Part shown: piece by piece, positions 2,809-31,348 of the stretch | Position numbering within the stretch: position 1 is the stretch's first letter | Layout of the letters: the number at the start of each line of letters is the position of its first letter | Assembly: GCF_000473205.1 (NCBI RefSeq) | Contig: NZ_KI421507.1 | Location: 965,934-1,029,933 of the forward strand | Length of the DNA: 64,000 bases | From: Pseudophaeobacter arcticus DSM 23566 | GTDB lineage: Bacteria; Pseudomonadota; Alphaproteobacteria; Rhodobacterales; Rhodobacteraceae | Reading direction: 5' to 3' | Made by a program: the position numbers and the translations under genes | Notes under the pieces: generated by a model | What the model saw: the letters and a program-made list of their open reading frames with translations, nothing else | Database searches by the model: none | What the model was told of the DNA's origin: nothing

Positions 2809-3150
2809 TTAGATCTGCTCTACTTTTACAGAGTCGCTCAGATGAAAGGCGAGGTAGCCTTTGATCTGCGCCAGGTCTTCGTTTGGCGCTTCATAGCTCC
2901 AGACCATATTTTCCGTTACCGATGACTTGTTGACGATTGAATAATAGGTGGCATCGCCCTTGTAGGGGCAGTGGGTTGTTTTGTCGCTGGGGTCCAGGAA
3001 GGCAACGGCGATGTCTTCGCGGGGGAAATAGATCACCGGATTATGGCCGTCCTCGTCCAGTTCCAGCGCGCGTGTGGTTTCACCCAATACTGCGCCGCCC
3101 GAGCGAACGACCCAGGTGCCAGCGGCCTTGCGGATGCGGATTTTGTTCAT
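2809..3150 (-). CDS. DUF427 domain protein
   Basis: A 113-residue soluble protein matching the DUF427 family as I know it: an N-terminal strand region with VVRSGGAVLGET, the central YFPREDIAVAFLDPSDKTTHCPYKGDATYYS block with the family's HCPYKG motif, and a C-terminal WSYEAPNEDLAQIKGYLAFH. The whole protein is one domain, so length is typical. The biochemical role of the family is not established; a small-molecule-binding beta-tent fold has been described. The gene lies 62 bp downstream of the aminopeptidase P gene on the same strand and could share its transcript. Confidence 0.9.
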   Translation of the reverse strand: MNKIRIRKAAGTWVVRSGGAVLGETTRALELDEDGHNPVIYFPREDIAVAFLDPSDKTTHCPYKGDATYYSIVNKSSVTENMVWSYEAPNEDLAQIKGYLAFHLSDSVKVEQI

Positions 3151-3212: not shown

Positions 3213-5003
3213 TCAGATTGGTTTGGTAACGTCATCCAGCCAGGATTGCGCTGCGGCACTGACGTGGGGGCGCAACTTCGCGGCGGTCTCGTCGTGATAG
3301 GCATTCAGCCAGTCTCGTTCTGCAGGCGTCAACATATCCACCAGAATGAGGCGGCGGTCAATCGGGGCGTAGGTCAGCCCGCGCCAGCACAGCATATCGC
3401 GCTCGGGATCGCTGGTGGCAAGCGCCGGAGCCGGTTCCACCACCAGCAGGTTTTCGATGCGAATGCCAAAGGCGCCTTCGCGGTAGTAACCCGGCTCGTT
3501 TGACAGGATCATTCCGGGTTCCAGTGGCACGGTTGAGACACGGCTCAAACGCTGCGGACCTTCGTGCACACTGAGATAGGCGCCAACACCATGGCCCAAC
3601 CCATGATTAAAATCCTGCCCGGCCAGCCAGAGCGGCATCCGGCCCACGGCTTCGATATCGCGGCCTGCCAGCCCCTTTGGCCAGCGCAGGCGGGACATTG
3701 AGATCATCCCCTGCAGCACCCGTGTAAAGGCAGCGCATTCGTCAGCCCCCGGCGTTCCGATGGCAATCGTACGGGTGATATCGGTGGTGCCGTCCAGATA
3801 TTGTCCGCCACTGTCGAGCACCAGCAGATGGCCCTCTTGCAGGCGGCTGTTGGTCTCTTCGGTGACCCGGTAGTGCATCACTGCGCCGTTTTCTCCGGTG
3901 CCGGATATGGTTTCAAAGCTGATATCGCGCAGCGCGGGATCCCGGCGGCGCAGCTCTTCCAGGTGTTTGGCCACCTCGATTTCGGTCACCGTACCACTGG
4001 GTTGGGCATCCAGCCAGGCGAGCAGTTCCACCACGGCGGCCCCATCGCGCAGATGGGCGGCGGCAGAGCCGGCGATCTCGGCGGCGTTCTTGCGGGCCTT
4101 GGGCAGAGCGCAGGGATCGCCTGCGTCCACCAGACGATGACCCAGCGCGTCGGCAACAATTTGCGGCAGGCTGGTGGCATCGACACTGACCTTGCCGCCA
4201 AGCGCCTGCACCGCGCCAAGGAAATCGCTGGGCGGATGGCAGGCGACGCTGGCGGGCAGGTGATCGGTGATTTGATGCAGCTTTTCAGGTGCCATGAACA
4301 GATCAACCCGCGCATCATCATGCAGGATGGCAAAGCCATGCGCCACCGGGTTTCGGGGGATATCGCCGCCGCGAATATTCAACAGCCACATGATGCTGTC
4401 GGGCAGGGTGATCACGGCGGCACTGTGACCGGCGGTGCGCAGATCTGCTGCCAGCCGGGCGCATTTGTCAGCCGCAGCTTCACCTGCATAGCTCAGCGCA
4501 TGGGGCAGGGCAGGCTGCAACGGTGGCGCGGGCTGGTCCTGCCAGATCCGGTCAACAAGGTTGTCACATTGCACCAGCTTGATCCCGGATCCTGCCAGGT
4601 CTTGCACCAGGCGAGAGATCTGGTCGCTGGCGTGTAGCCAGGCGTCATAGCCAACCTTGCCGCCCTGTGGCAGCTGCTCCTTCAACCAGCTGGCAAGGGA
4701 TACCTCGGGCCAGGGCACCGGGGTGAAATCGGCGGCGACCTGTCGCTTGACCTGGGTGCGGTAGCGACCGTCAATGAAGACGCCAGCGCTGCTGTCGAGC
4801 ACCGCGCAGAAACCGGCTGATCCTGTAAAGCCAGTAAGCCAGCTGAGCCGCTCGTCGCGCGGCGCCACATATTCCCCCTGATGCGCATCGGCACGGGGCA
4901 CCAAAAAGCCGTTCAGCCCCTCTTGGGTCAGTTCCGCCCGCAGGGCTAGAAGTCGTGGAGGGCCCTGCTCGGGGCGCGCGGTGACTTCGAAACTCTGGAA
5001 CAT
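3213..5003 (-). CDS. Xaa-Pro aminopeptidase (M24B, aminopeptidase P family)
   Basis: A 596-residue cytosolic metallopeptidase that removes an N-terminal residue preceding proline. It has the three-part layout of the long, eukaryote-like aminopeptidase P: two creatinase-type N-terminal domains (about 1-150 and 150-310) and the pita-bread catalytic domain. The dimetal ligands are visible: D397 and D408 in the DSGGQYLDGTTDITRT block, H471 in GLGHGVGAY, and glutamates in SNEPGYY and RIENL. The start at 5003 gives the usual short leader (MFQSFEVTARPEQGPPRL). It stands alone, with a 500-bp repeat-bearing gap upstream, and may be cotranscribed with the DUF427 gene. Confidence 0.93.
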   Translation of the reverse strand: MFQSFEVTARPEQGPPRLLALRAELTQEGLNGFLVPRADAHQGEYVAPRDERLSWLTGFTGSAGFCAVLDSSAGVFIDGRYRTQVKRQVAADFTPVPWPEVSLASWLKEQLPQGGKVGYDAWLHASDQISRLVQDLAGSGIKLVQCDNLVDRIWQDQPAPPLQPALPHALSYAGEAAADKCARLAADLRTAGHSAAVITLPDSIMWLLNIRGGDIPRNPVAHGFAILHDDARVDLFMAPEKLHQITDHLPASVACHPPSDFLGAVQALGGKVSVDATSLPQIVADALGHRLVDAGDPCALPKARKNAAEIAGSAAAHLRDGAAVVELLAWLDAQPSGTVTEIEVAKHLEELRRRDPALRDISFETISGTGENGAVMHYRVTEETNSRLQEGHLLVLDSGGQYLDGTTDITRTIAIGTPGADECAAFTRVLQGMISMSRLRWPKGLAGRDIEAVGRMPLWLAGQDFNHGLGHGVGAYLSVHEGPQRLSRVSTVPLEPGMILSNEPGYYREGAFGIRIENLLVVEPAPALATSDPERDMLCWRGLTYAPIDRRLILVDMLTPAERDWLNAYHDETAAKLRPHVSAAAQSWLDDVTKPI

Positions 5004-5153: not shown

Positions 5154-5164
5154 GGGGGGGGGGG
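5154..5164 (+). repeat. homopolymer of eleven G
   Basis: An uninterrupted run of eleven G lies about 150 bp upstream of the aminopeptidase P start, on the template side. Such runs slip during replication and can alter promoter spacing, but the run is far from the start codon and no promoter is evident around it. Confidence 0.8.
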
Positions 5165-5210
5165 CACAGTGAAGGACACAGGGAGGGACCCCAGGTGCCC
5201 CTTGATGAAG

Positions 5211-5291
5211 CGAGCGCTCCCGCCCGCAGTCAAAAGCATCACAGATGCTGTTCCTGCCGTTGGGCCCGGCGCCGTGCTGTCGCACGGCGCG
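5211..5291 (-). repeat. three-hairpin dispersed repeat, copy A
   Basis: Read on the minus strand, this copy has stem 1 GCCGTGC-gaca-GCACGGC (5288-5271), the linker GCCGGGCCCAA, stem 2 AGCATC-tgt-GATGCT (5249-5235) and a GCGGGCGGGAGCGC tail. The same order recurs at 5345-5424 and 30351-30424 with different but still paired stem bases, while the linker and both loops are nearly unchanged. It lies between cobT and the aminopeptidase P gene, in the same direction as both, so it could be in a cobT 3' UTR or a pepP-like 5' UTR. Confidence 0.75.
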
Positions 5292-5344
5292 GCTGTGCCC
5301 TTAACCGATCTGATCTTATGAAACGAATGATATGCCACAACCGC

Positions 5345-5424
5345 AGCGCGCGTCAGCGCGCTGCCGGGCCCAAGGCTGTGAGGCGCATCTGTGATGCGTC
5401 CCAAAGGCGCGGGAGCCCCCCCGT
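5345..5424 (+). repeat. three-hairpin dispersed repeat, copy B
   Basis: Stem 1 is AGCGCGC-gtca-GCGCGCT (5345-5362), followed by the linker GCCGGGCCCAA, stem 2 GCGCATC-tgt-GATGCGT (5383-5399) and the tail GCGCGGGAGCCCCCC. It is inverted relative to copy A with 53 bp between the two stem-1 elements, making a BIME-like inverted pair. It runs antisense to the end of the cobT transcript. About 100 further bases to 5520 show no gene. Confidence 0.78.
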
Positions 5425-5520: not shown

Positions 5521-7398
5521 TTAGCTAACCTTGCGGATCCCCATGACCCGGGCACGGGCGCGGGGGTCACTGTCAAACAGGGCAGCAAGCTGTTCGGTCA
5601 TGGCGCCGGCCAGCTGTTCCACATCGGTAATGGTCACCGCGCGATCATAATAGCGCGTCACATCATGGCCAATCCCAATCGCCAGCAGTTCTACCTGTTT
5701 GCGCTTTTCCACCATGGCGATCACATCGCGCAGATGTTTTTCCAGATAGTTGGCCGGGTTCACCGAGAGGGTGCTGTCATCAACGGGCGCGCCATCGGAA
5801 ATCACCATCAGGATCTTGCGCGCTTCCTGGCGGGCGATCATGCGGCGATGGGCCCATTCCAGCGCCTCACCGTCGATGTTTTCCTTCAGCAAGCCCTCCT
5901 TCATCATCAGGCCCAGATTGGGCCGCACCCGGCGCCAGGGGGTGTCGGCGGATTTATAGATGATGTGGCGCAGATCATTCAGCCGCCCCGGCATCTGCGG
6001 CCGCCCGTCATTGAGCCAGGCCTCGCGGGCCAGCCCGCCCTTCCAGGCACGGGTGGTGAAGCCGAGGATCTCGACCTTGACGTTGCAGCGTTCCAGGGTG
6101 CGGGCCAGAACATCGGCGCAGATCGCGGCGATGGAAATGGGGCGCCCGCGCATCGAGCCGGAGTTGTCCAGCAAGAGCGTGACCACGGTGTCGCGGAATT
6201 CGGTGTCTTTTTCGCGCTTGAAGGACAGCGGCGTGGTGGGGTTGGCAATCACCCGCGCCAGACGGCCGGCATCCAGAATACCTTCCTCCAGGTCAAACTC
6301 CCAAGAGCGGTTCTGCTGGGCCTGAAGCCGACGCTGCAGCTTGTTGGCCAAGCGGCTGACAGCGCCCTTTAAAGGCTCAAGTTGTTGATCAAGATAGGCG
6401 CGCAGGCGTTCCAGTTCAGCCGGTTCCGCCAGCTCTTCGGCGGCGATTTCTTCGTCATTGGCGTCGAGGAAGACCTTGTAGTCCGGGTCGGCCTCGGAGA
6501 CGGGCGGCGGCGGTGGCGGATCCTGCGGTGCCTCACCGTCGGGCATTTCGGTTTCTTCGGCCAGCTCTTCGTCGGCCATCTCATCCATCGAGACCTGTGC
6601 CTGGCTTTCGTCCTGCTGTTGCTCCTGCGCCTGCTCGGCGTCAGCATCGGCCTGTTCGTCGTCGGAGTCATCTTCGCCGGTGCTGTCAGGATCGGGCTGC
6701 TCTTCGGCGTTGTCTTCGGCCTCGTCGTCCTGGTTGTCGTCCAGCTCATCCGGGTCATCGCCCAGCTGATCACCATAGCCCAAGTCAGCGATGATCTTGC
6801 GGGCAAATTTGGCAAATTCCGACTGATCAGCGATCTTGCTGTCGAGATCTTCCAGCGTCTCCCCGGCCTGGGATTCGATAAACCCGCGCCACAGCTCCAT
6901 CACATTGTCGGCGCCCTGGGGCAGCGGGCGGCCCGTGGCCAGATGGCGCACCAGATAGCCCGCCGAGGCCGCCAGCGGCGCCTCGGATGAGCTTTTCATC
7001 TGGTCATAGCCGCGCCGGATGGCGTCATTGCGGATCTTGACGTCGATATTGCTGGCCGTCCCCGGCATATGCCGCGCCCCCATGGCCTCGCAGCGGGCGG
7101 TTTCCATCGCCTCATAGAGATCACGCGCCATTTCCCCCTGGGGGGTGTATTTGGCATGGGTGGCATCGTCATGGAACTTGCGGCGCAGGGCCAGGGCATC
7201 CGCGGTGCCACGGGCCAGCAGCACCTCCTCGCGGGTCATGCGGCGGCTAACCTGCGGCAGGCGCATATTGTCGCCGGACACCCCCGAAGGGTCGACGGTA
7301 TAGGAAACGCTCAGCTCCGGATCATCGGCCATGACCTTGGTGGCCTCGGCCAGGGCCTTTTTGAACGGATCAGCAGGATTGTCGTTTTGTTTTCTCAT
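5521..7398 (-). CDS. cobT: aerobic cobaltochelatase subunit CobT
   Basis: A 625-residue cytosolic subunit of the CobNST complex, which inserts cobalt into hydrogenobyrinic acid a,c-diamide in aerobic cobalamin synthesis. The N-terminal CobT domain (about 1-330) contains a long Asp/Glu-rich stretch (about 205-310) typical of the protein. The C-terminal von Willebrand A domain has the MIDAS motif DNSGS at 411-415 ([13 protein letters not shown]) and a later SDGAPVDD. It lies 166 bp downstream of cobS on the same strand, and the gap carries stable hairpins. Length and architecture match characterised CobT. The first [19 protein letters not shown], fits family starts. Confidence 0.97.
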
Positions 7399-29627: not shown

Positions 29628-30212
29628 ATGACGTTTTCAGCCCCAGATTCCAAGACACAGACCATCCTTGCCGCCGCCTGGGCGGGTTTCTCCGCCTATG
29701 GGTTTCGCAAAACCTCGATGGATGACATAGCGCGGGGGGCCGGCATGTCACGTCCGGCGCTCTATCTTCATTTCAAAAACAAAGAAGCAATCTTTCGCGG
29801 CCTTGTGGCGAGCTACTACGCTGAGGCCGCGCATGAGGTGGCGGCAGCTCTGGCGCAGGAGGGGGCTCTGTCGCAGCGTCTGGCGCGTGCCTTTGCCGCC
29901 CATGGCGGTGAGACCATGGAGGCGATGATGTCTTCGGCCCACGGAATGGAGCTGTTCGAAGCCAGCATGAATGTCGCTGGTGATATGATCGAAGAGGGGG
30001 AAGCACAGTTGCAGGCAGTCTATGGGCGCTGGCTGCGGGCCGAGTCTGCCCGGGGGCAGTTGCAAATGACAGGGGAGGCGGATGCACTGGGGGGGGTGTT
30101 CTGCGCCTGCCTCAAAGGGATCAAACATACCTCAAAGAGTTACGAGAGCTATCGGAGCGGGGTGGCGGAGTTTGCGGCGCTTTGCGCCCGAGCCTTGGCG
30201 CCTCTGCCCTAG
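29628..30212 (+). CDS. TetR/AcrR family transcriptional regulator
   Basis: A 194-residue one-component repressor. The N-terminal helix-turn-helix (about residues 10-55: TILAAAWAGFSAYGFRKTSMDDIARGAGMSRPALYLHFKNKEAIF) fits the family closely; the C-terminal helical domain would bind an inducer. The ATG at 29628 keeps the gene clear of the second operator; an in-frame start 51 bases upstream would place coding sequence across it. Divergence from the IorAB-type genes and the paired operators suggest it represses them and itself. The ligand is unknown. Confidence 0.92.
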   Translation: MTFSAPDSKTQTILAAAWAGFSAYGFRKTSMDDIARGAGMSRPALYLHFKNKEAIFRGLVASYYAEAAHEVAAALAQEGALSQRLARAFAAHGGETMEAMMSSAHGMELFEASMNVAGDMIEEGEAQLQAVYGRWLRAESARGQLQMTGEADALGGVFCACLKGIKHTSKSYESYRSGVAEFAALCARALAPLP

Positions 30213-30350
30213 GGTCCTCGCTCGCCCTTCTTGCCTCCCTGCGAACGGGGGCCTGTCGATGGCCTAAAATCACGGCCTAAATCACAGCCTGAACGCGGTT
30301 GCTTCGATCCCGTGCGTTCTTCTCCCCTGCGTTCTATTCTGCGGTGACGC

Positions 30351-30424
30351 GCCGCGCGTCAGCGCGGCGCCGGGCCCAACGGGATGCGACATCTTGGATG
30401 TCGCGAGACGGGCGGGAGCCCCCC
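30351..30424 (+). repeat. three-hairpin dispersed repeat, copy C
   Basis: Stem 1 is GCCGCGC-gtca-GCGCGGC (30351-30368), then the linker GCCGGGCCCAA, stem 2 GCGACATC-ttg-GATGTCGC (30386-30404), and a third stem GACGGG/CCCGTC around GCGGGAGC. Same order and orientation logic as the copies at 5211-5424, with changed but paired stems. It lies in the 278-bp gap between the TetR gene and kynA, downstream of both. No gene is seen in the gap. Confidence 0.8.
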
Positions 30425-30490
30425 GTCTCTGTTTTTTAATGTCTCTGTTTTTCCCGTCTCTGTTTGCCCTGGCTCTGTTTATCCTGCGGG

Positions 30491-31348
30491 TTACAGCGTG
30501 GTGCGCAGGTGCCAAAGCTCGGGAAACAGCTCCACCTCCAGCATCCGCTTTAGGTAGTTAACCCCACCAGTGCCGCCGGTGCCGCGTTTAAAGCCAATGA
30601 CCCGCTCCACCGTGGTCACGTGATTGAACCGCCAGCGGCGGAAGTAATCTTCAAAATCCACCAGTTTCTCGGCCAGTTCATAAAGCTCCCAATGGGCCTC
30701 GGGGGCGCGGTAGACCTCAGACCAGGCGGCCTCTACCGCCGCGCTGGCCTGATAGGCTTCGCAGAGGTCACGATGGATCACCGCGTCAGGCAGGGCAAAG
30801 CGCGCATGCAGCGCCCGCAGGGCCACATCATACAGCGAGGGCTGGGCCAGCTCTGCCTCCAGCAGCGCCACCAGATCGGGGCGATGGGCATGGGGTTTCA
30901 GCATCGCCTTGTTGCGGTTGCCCAGCATGAATTCAATGAGCCGGTACTGATGCGACTGAAAGCCAGAGCTCTGCCCCAAGGCATCGCGAAAGGCGGTGTA
31001 ATCCGACGGCGTCATGGTGCGCAGCACATCCCAGGCGGAATTAAGCTGCTCAAAAATCCGCGCCACCCGCGCCAGCATCTTGAAGGCCTGTCTGGTCTCG
31101 CCCTTGAGCAAACGCGCGCGCGCCGCCTGCAGCTCATGAATGGCCAGCCGCATCCACAGTTCGGATGTTTGGTGCTGGATGATGAAAAGCATTTCATCAT
31201 GGGTATCGGTCCAGGGTTTCTGGGCGTTCAGCAACATATCCAGCGAGAGATAGTCGCCATAGGACATGCGGCCGTCAAAATCCATCTGGGCGCCGTCATC
31301 GGCGGGGTTGAAGGGGCAGCCCTGTGTCGTGGTCTTGGAATCACTCAT
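30491..31348 (-). CDS. kynA: tryptophan 2,3-dioxygenase
   Basis: A 285-residue heme enzyme that opens the tryptophan indole ring to N-formylkynurenine. Family motifs are clear: [37 protein letters not shown] (with the distal His), [20 protein letters not shown] and the heme-ligand region [31 protein letters not shown]. The ATG at 31348 is preceded by AGGAGGAA and is chosen over a longer frame. It follows kynU by 148 bp on the same strand, forming a tryptophan-to-anthranilate route. The formamidase is not adjacent in this window. Confidence 0.97.

Follow-up and report, generated by a model that had tools for sequence, protein, structure and literature searches.

The window, a stretch of 64,000 nucleotides from the genome of Pseudophaeobacter arcticus DSM 23566 (G000), contains three copies (A, B, and C) of a two-hairpin repeat family that comprises about 85 copies in this genome, has no counterpart in Rfam, and is apparently undescribed. 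It is probable (roughly 0.6) that these copies represent an old REP/REPIN-like, single-stranded DNA hairpin repeat of roseobacters that is now fixed under structural constraint. The copies occur singly or as head-to-head dimers, a few of which have one hairpin 1 in common. Their stems covary, they lie between genes and chiefly where genes converge, their dimers have one orientation, their positions are largely shared across the genus, and their polarity follows replication in two genera.

Anatomy and covariation of the repeat

The first-pass annotation had described arms, loops, a linker, and a tail for copies A, B, and C, all of which are present in the sequence as stated (Table 1). The 5.05-Mb genome contains 44 occurrences of the 11-nt linker motif (GCCGGGCCCAA) and 5 of a reversed control pattern. 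At 38 of these 44 sites, a hairpin lies directly upstream (with one mismatch in three cases) and GCGGGAG is found 30–55 nt downstream; the remaining six sites have no tail and no clean hairpin. The 38 sites correspond to 37 copies, two of the sites being the duplicated linker of one copy (L030/L138; C6:3058951-3059058), in which the linker and the nucleotides that follow it are repeated in tandem. A covariance model (R1) was built from 25 of the 37 linker-defined copies, leaving out eight with a hairpin 2 longer than 37 nt as well as L007, L025, L030, and L043. A search of the genome with R1 returned 86 matches at E ≤ 0.1, and the family thus extends far beyond the three copies in which it was first recognized.

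Table 1. Parts of copies A, B, and C and the genes that flank them (positions are those of the window).
Feature	Positions	Strand	Evidence
Copy A, whole element	5208..5290	-	R1 match, C6:971141-971223:-, 71.1 bits
Copy A hairpin 1, loop GACA (cGNNAg type)	5269..5290	-	
Copy A linker GCCGGGCCCAA	5260..5270	-	
Copy A hairpin 2, apex AGCATC-TGT-GATGCT	5224..5259	-	
Copy A tail GCGGGAGCGCTCGCTT	5208..5223	-	
Spacer, 52 bp, separating stem-1 ends of A and B	5291..5342	.	
Copy B, whole element	5343..5424	+	R1 match, C6:971276-971357:+, 76.6 bits
Copy B hairpin 1, loop GTCA	5343..5364	+	
Copy B linker	5363..5373	+	
Copy B hairpin 2, loop TGT	5374..5408	+	
Copy B tail GCGGGAGCCCCCCCGT	5409..5424	+	
Copy C, whole element	30349..30427	+	R1 match, C6:996282-996360:+, 78.4 bits
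Copy C hairpin 1, loop GTCA	30349..30370	+	
Copy C linker	30369..30379	+	
Copy C hairpin 2, CGG/CGG base with G.G mismatch, apex GCGACATC-TTG-GATGTCGC	30380..30411	+	
Copy C tail GCGGGAGCCCCCCGTC	30412..30427	+	
cobT gene, 3' end towards tail of B	5521..7398	-	TIGR01651, 816 bits
M24 (Xaa-Pro type) peptidase gene, start towards tail of A	3213..5003	-	PF00557
Tryptophan 2,3-dioxygenase gene, stop codon 63 nt from end of C	30491..31348	-	TIGR03036
TetR-family regulator gene, upstream of C	29628..30212	+	PF00440

Each copy comprises, in order, hairpin 1, CCCAA, hairpin 2, and CGGGAG over about 81 nt (a unit of about 81–95 bp). Hairpin 1 mostly has 5–10 bp and a loop of 3–4 nt and is followed by a variable 2–5 nt before CCCAA, and hairpin 2 measures 30–49 nt among the linker-defined copies (the copy with the duplicated linker aside). 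Downstream of hairpin 2 come GCGGGAG, a C-rich stretch, and, in the genus Pseudophaeobacter only, a short T stretch. CGGGAG is present in all 86 copies of the genome and CCCAA is in register in 85, and a weaker motif, CGC(A)(A/G)CC, was identified 5' of hairpin 1 among 79 copies. As judged by eye, hairpin 2 often starts with CGG-GA and ends with GA-CGG, which leaves retained G.G and G.A mismatches, and the pairs between and above these mismatches change together. Near-identical versions of hairpin 2 were found at unlinked loci of the genome in one pair among the equal-length hairpins compared (at least 82% identity) and, by eye, in a second pair (3396945 and 4027007) that is one deletion apart.

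Among the 25 paralogues, double changes were observed in 9 of 15 pairs, which none of 500 shuffles reached, and the covariation score was 0.261, whereas slid registers did not exceed 0.075; 20 of the 500 shuffles had at least as many further pair types. We also aligned 9 of the 11 orthologues of copy C (A4; G002 and G004, with a longer hairpin 2, were omitted), using a structure drawn from the P. arcticus copy. In this alignment, 95.2% of cells pair (47% at most in slid registers) and 5 of 23 pairs show double changes, a value reached by 1 of 500 shuffles. Further pair types were not above shuffles in these nine orthologues (316 of 500), one proposed pair is unpaired in six of the nine, and seven pairs of helix 2, including CCC/GGG, are invariant and therefore uninformative. 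Kinship alone can beat such shuffles without structure, and the paralogue and orthologue sets are therefore best read jointly. The copy C orthologues also keep the hairpin 2 mismatches in fixed places (G.G and mostly G.A). Collectively, the stems continue to change in a paired way as more copies are aligned, and the covariation at orthologous sites together with the retained mismatches supports the selection on structure that had been proposed from three copies. This constraint is not absolute, as by eye altered boxes are carried by copy B in both G006 and G007 and by copy A in G010.

Several further structures were considered and set aside. A helix between linker and tail (GGGCCC/GGG-AG-CCC, a close form of which was proposed by RNAalifold) was rejected by eye because the GGG half varies (CCGGG, CCCGG, CCAGG, CCACC, and CCATG in the full set) with the tail unchanged; the nucleotides 5' of the linker CCC likewise differ among copies with no matching change in the tail. 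Since the GGG half varies independently of the tail, only the invariant CCC/GGG could still pair linker and tail. A third hairpin in the tail (GGGC-GGGA-GCCC) has two sides that do not covary as judged by eye, and a G-quadruplex was dropped because the G tract of the linker is not conserved.

Distribution and shared positions among roseobacters

A search of relatives with the covariance model, as the first-pass annotation had suggested, recovered further copies in the genus, family, and order samples. All 12 genomes of the genus sample had matches, with at least 34–85 copies per genome; copy numbers are lower bounds, as at most 150 candidates were scored per genome (31, 23, or 19 in the large sets). 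Under strict filters, the element was identified in 22 of 149 genomes of the family sample, in 34 of 196 genomes and 16 of 87 genera of the order sample (all within the Rhodobacteraceae), and in 1 of 240 genomes of the class sample, this being P. arcticus itself. Screening against Rfam, also proposed at the outset, matched no family: the window had no match above gathering cut-offs, and six matches at E ≤ 1 for 10 copy loci were all below those cut-offs. The accessible text of the literature, including PMC2864571, PMC3733652, and PMC3116915, yielded no earlier description of a two-hairpin family, and a word search of the accessible text of PMC6006769 returned no mention of it.

Among the 80 of at least 119 matching stretches listed, roseobacters and other Rhodobacteraceae are represented, as judged from their titles, by, for example, Leisingera, Tritonibacter, Ruegeria, Tropicibacter, and Pseudophaeobacter. 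Six plasmid records (Leisingera, Tritonibacter, and Ruegeria) match 31–39% of the A/B query, and the annotation of three of these places all three matches between genes (two convergent and one tandem). One matching record is labelled Nocardioides marinus (JAHVJD010000003.1, L254, element at 3052-3103). The genes near this element have 83% protein identity to genes around a P. arcticus copy, and the contig is probably roseobacter DNA under a wrong label.

Positions of the copies are largely common across the genus. Of 47 loci sampled from other genomes of the genus, 44 are flanked on both sides by genes that match the two sides of one P. arcticus copy, and these 44 loci map to 21 distinct P. 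arcticus loci; the sample combines 27 best matches with 20 loci picked from G009 and G001 and leans toward good matches. In the genus, 11 of 12 genomes have an orthologue of copy C downstream of the dioxygenase gene, and by eye the A/B dimer lies downstream of cobT in 8 of 12. Loci without the element were observed at the dioxygenase gene in 1 of 12 genomes and at cobT in 4 of 12, and the edges of these empty sites could not be placed by eye. No instance of a copy on the move and no clean empty site came to light, which counts against the preferred explanation. A wholly different hairpin 2 was found at shared loci in G004 (copy C) and G005 (L094), suggesting that some exchange between copies is possible.

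Inspection of these loci by eye yielded three side observations. In G005, G003, and G004 (L333, L335, and L340), the place of the A/B dimer beside cobT is taken by a different gene-like stretch. In G001, which likewise has no A/B dimer at this locus, cobT is adjoined by a short gap only. An 11-nt G run at window positions 5154-5164, on the tail side of copy A and upstream of the M24 peptidase gene, has an apparently shorter counterpart in relatives (e.g., G009 and G010).

Gene context, dimers, and replication polarity

Gene contexts were taken from codon-usage-based gene calls made for this analysis. Overlap with a called gene stays below 30 nt for all 86 copies (7 nt at most), and the copies collapse to 67 loci, comprising 49 convergent, 16 tandem, and 2 divergent gaps. 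Background gaps (n = 189; gaps of at least 90 bp in the window and in 18 sampled 20-kb stretches) comprised 35 convergent, 105 tandem, and 49 divergent, indicating an enrichment in convergent gaps (Fisher P ~1e-15). Copy C, with a TetR-type gene (+) on one side and the tryptophan 2,3-dioxygenase gene (-) on the other, is an example. Among 80 loci in named relatives, where 86 copies were found, 36 of the 66 scored copies were convergent and none was inside a gene, as compared to 65 convergent gaps among 287 in the background of those relatives. In tandem gene contexts, five single copies were sense and six antisense, suggesting that the direction of transcription does not set orientation.

The inverted pair formed by A and B, on which the first-pass annotation remarked, is one of 19 close pairs in the genome, all of which are arranged minus-then-plus (head-to-head) with hairpin 1 inside and the tails outside. 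Two other genera had the same orientation in all of their close pairs (16 of 16 and 5 of 5), which brings the count to 40 of 40 over three chromosomes. With a looser finder, 14 of 16 close neighbors in named relatives had tails outward and two had another orientation, and these two count against our preferred explanation. Three P. arcticus pairs overlap by 22–23 nt, such that one hairpin 1 is common to both copies. Single copies outnumber pairs in the genome by 48 to 19 (ratio of 2.5).

GC skew places the origin of the P. arcticus chromosome near 3.725 Mb and its terminus near 1.65 Mb. Single copies, read 5' to 3' in the sense direction, point to the origin in 37 of 47 cases (P = 1e-4), with 20 of 21 doing so on one arm and 17 of 26 on the other. 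Convergent loci taken by themselves retain this polarity (27 of 35, P = 0.002), and the two tandem orientations show it in the same direction (4 of 5 and 5 of 6). In G312, from another genus, 61 of 75 singles point to the origin (P = 4e-8), and shifting the terminus by 150 kb either way gives 58–60 of 75. In G296, from a third genus, the count of 18 of 28 is not significant (P = 0.18) and weighs against the preferred explanation. Origins and termini of G312 and G296 are rough estimates, and all polarity counts refer to main chromosomes only (107 of 113 matches in G312 and 38 of 39 in G296). Orientation that follows replication, a hallmark of elements transposed as single-stranded DNA, was thus detected in two genera and was not significant in the third.

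The largest copy-free gap in the P. arcticus chromosome spans 835 kb and is centered on 1.640 Mb, at the skew-defined terminus; none of 20000 random placements matched it. From origin to terminus, loci per arm quarter number 24, 24, 15, and 3 in P. arcticus, 17, 9, 5, and 2 in G296, and 23, 28, 23, and 16 in G312, where depletion at the terminus is not significant. The terminus quarter is therefore depleted in two of three chromosomes.

Origin and possible role of the repeat

The REP/BIME-like character first suggested for the repeat is borne out by its architecture: it is intergenic and palindromic, forms head-to-head pairs, is enriched at convergent junctions, and is present in tens of copies. 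Ends of IS200/IS605 elements are imperfect hairpins whose orientation is tied to the direction of replication, and the repeat resembles these ends and their non-autonomous derivatives in both respects; it differs in that the P. arcticus genome has no Y1 transposase and no defined mobile unit lies between repeat ends. ERIC and other larger intergenic palindromes are similar in size and intergenic placement, but differ in their boxes and taxonomic range. The core site of integron attC resembles GCCCAAC, and attC was considered for this likeness and rejected as the boxes face the wrong way. A further comparison is with the CGTC REPs, which the main text of PMC3733652 describes as alpha-proteobacterial, prevailingly head-to-head dimers in convergent and tandem intergenic gaps, with no associated transposase, and as having a single 8–9 bp stem starting from A-T pairs, an unpaired CGTC tag, and a CCA tail over 20–40 bp. 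The roseobacter repeat is likewise alpha-proteobacterial and intergenic, with head-to-head close pairs and no linked Y1 gene, but it has two hairpins over about 81 nt, a G-C-rich stem 1, and CCCAA/CGGGAG boxes; Ruegeria, Roseobacter, and Rhodobacter are not mentioned in that main text (figures aside). GTAG REPs/REPINs, in the available text of PMC3116915, are extragenic, occur in many copies, form inverted doublets able to fold into one long hairpin, and are associated with a RAYT; their doublets are more frequent than singlets, at a ratio under 2. The roseobacter repeat is also extragenic and numerous, with inverted doublets that carry the foot motif outside. It differs in having CGGGAG (86 of 86) rather than a GTAG tag, in the lack of a RAYT, and in positions that are largely common across the genus. 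The excess of singles over pairs also departs from what is described for RAYT-driven REPINs and counts against the preferred explanation.

Mobilization by a RAYT-type transposase, as originally proposed, did not hold up. No Y1_Tnp match was detected in the P. arcticus genome at E ≤ 0.001 by a search that was positive in 5 of 14 controls. Among the 149 family genomes, 22 have the element, 15 have Y1, and 3 have both (about 2.2 expected), indicating no association. Four of the five Y1 genes in these three genomes were tested, and all four pass the IS200/IS605 cut-off and none the REP-transposase cut-off (one weak match, 36 bits relative to 80). The relative G026 has an IS200-type gene (L327, 2674-3406), whose own match to the family profile is interrupted by a gap, with an inverted copy on either side. 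We considered and rejected this arrangement as a REPtron. The other two IS200-type genes of G026 are near only weaker matches (E of 0.003 and 0.25), and the L327 gene is therefore interpreted as having inserted into the spacer of a dimer. A currently active, RAYT-mobilized REPIN family would account for the head-to-head dimers, the small conserved box at the hairpin foot, and the G026 arrangement, but these transposase results and the positions largely shared across the genus make it very unlikely.

An element that acts as RNA in sense orientation, whether a structured 3' UTR, a small RNA, or an intrinsic terminator, is improbable, though less so than active mobilization. It would fit the strong folding, the placement at gene 3' ends, and the tandem G.A mismatches seen by eye in hairpin 2, as well as the T-rich stretch found in the genus 13–17 nt from where CGGGAG begins (70% of the 86 copies have T at position 14). 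Runs of four or more T follow 28 of 86 tails, and each of two control sides has 9 in 86, but 58 tails have no such run, named relatives have no T stretch (24–29% T), and nothing pairs consistently with the C tract that precedes the T stretch. An intrinsic terminator is disfavored given these tails and the neutral tandem orientation. That neutrality, with five sense and six antisense singles, and a polarity that follows replication suggest DNA rather than a sense transcript, and the small RNA or mRNA 3' element first suggested is accordingly disfavored. Among 49 hairpin-1 tetraloops of the genome, 28 are cGNYAg, 5 cGNRAg, 1 cGNABg, 6 of C..G types, and 9 others, with no UNCG; of 31 triloops, GNA accounts for 10 and other types for 21. 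The named types are stable in DNA, and the classic RNA loops among them are confined to the GNRA and CTTG minority. In named relatives and other genera, cGNNAg tetraloops number 21 on the sense strand and 0 on the complementary strand, and GNA triloops number 21 and 1; within the genus, tetraloops of G..A type number 17 and 1. These strand-specific loops favor selection on, or recognition of, a single-stranded DNA hairpin, an argument weakened by common descent of the loops. From the polarity, the stable-loop strand is the leading-strand template, whereas the simplest form of single-stranded DNA transposition would place it on the exposed lagging template; this again counts against the preferred explanation. 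That template switching during mutation keeps the palindromes perfect in the absence of selection is scarcely credible: hairpin-templated repair is a possible source of double changes in palindromes, but it does not fit the conservation of boxes outside the stems (CGGGAG in 86 of 86), the fixed mismatches of hairpin 2 in copy C orthologues, or loop ends conserved on one strand.

The main rival, and a more interesting one than a relic, is a functional polar chromosome site whose orientation and avoidance of the terminus are selected rather than left over from insertion. A putative protein on the hairpin or the CCCAA/CGGGAG box would then serve nucleoid organization, the supercoils between converging genes, or a one-way barrier. 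Polarity in two genera, the depleted terminus quarter in two of three chromosomes and the 835-kb gap centered on the terminus, positions largely common across the genus, the maintained structure, and the placement at convergent junctions are all consistent with such a site. Against it stand the patchy distribution (22 of 149 sampled family genera under strict filters), orthologous junctions that have no element, the non-significant terminus depletion in G312, a depletion that may instead reflect younger gene content near the terminus, and a binding protein that is hypothetical; we regard this alternative as unlikely. It is conceivable, though doubtful, that replication-polar, terminus-avoiding structured sites at converging-gene junctions form a new architectural class in roseobacters, selected over at least the age of the genus and recognized by a putative protein at the hairpin or the CCCAA...CGGGAG box.

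If the repeat is an old, fixed one, as we prefer, it may have spread anciently along a route that involved single-stranded DNA and was linked to replication forks (chemistry of the IS200/REP type), by means of a mobilizing enzyme that would no longer be encoded in the P. arcticus genome. Copies would have been kept because they do no harm, or some good, where genes end, and constraint would maintain both hairpin formation and the CCCAA...CGGGAG box. Their present role would likely be passive and structural at converging gene ends, for example as a block to transcription, a spacer, or a putative protein-bound hairpin site.

The repeat adds a well-defined family to the alpha-proteobacterial REP-like elements that have no transposase, a group whose origin is left open in the main text of PMC3733652. 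With positions largely shared across the genus and stems that covary, a laboratory roseobacter would allow the deletion or inversion of individual copies. Polarity and terminus avoidance provide a testable handle on the origin of such orphan repeats and on their possible role in the chromosome.
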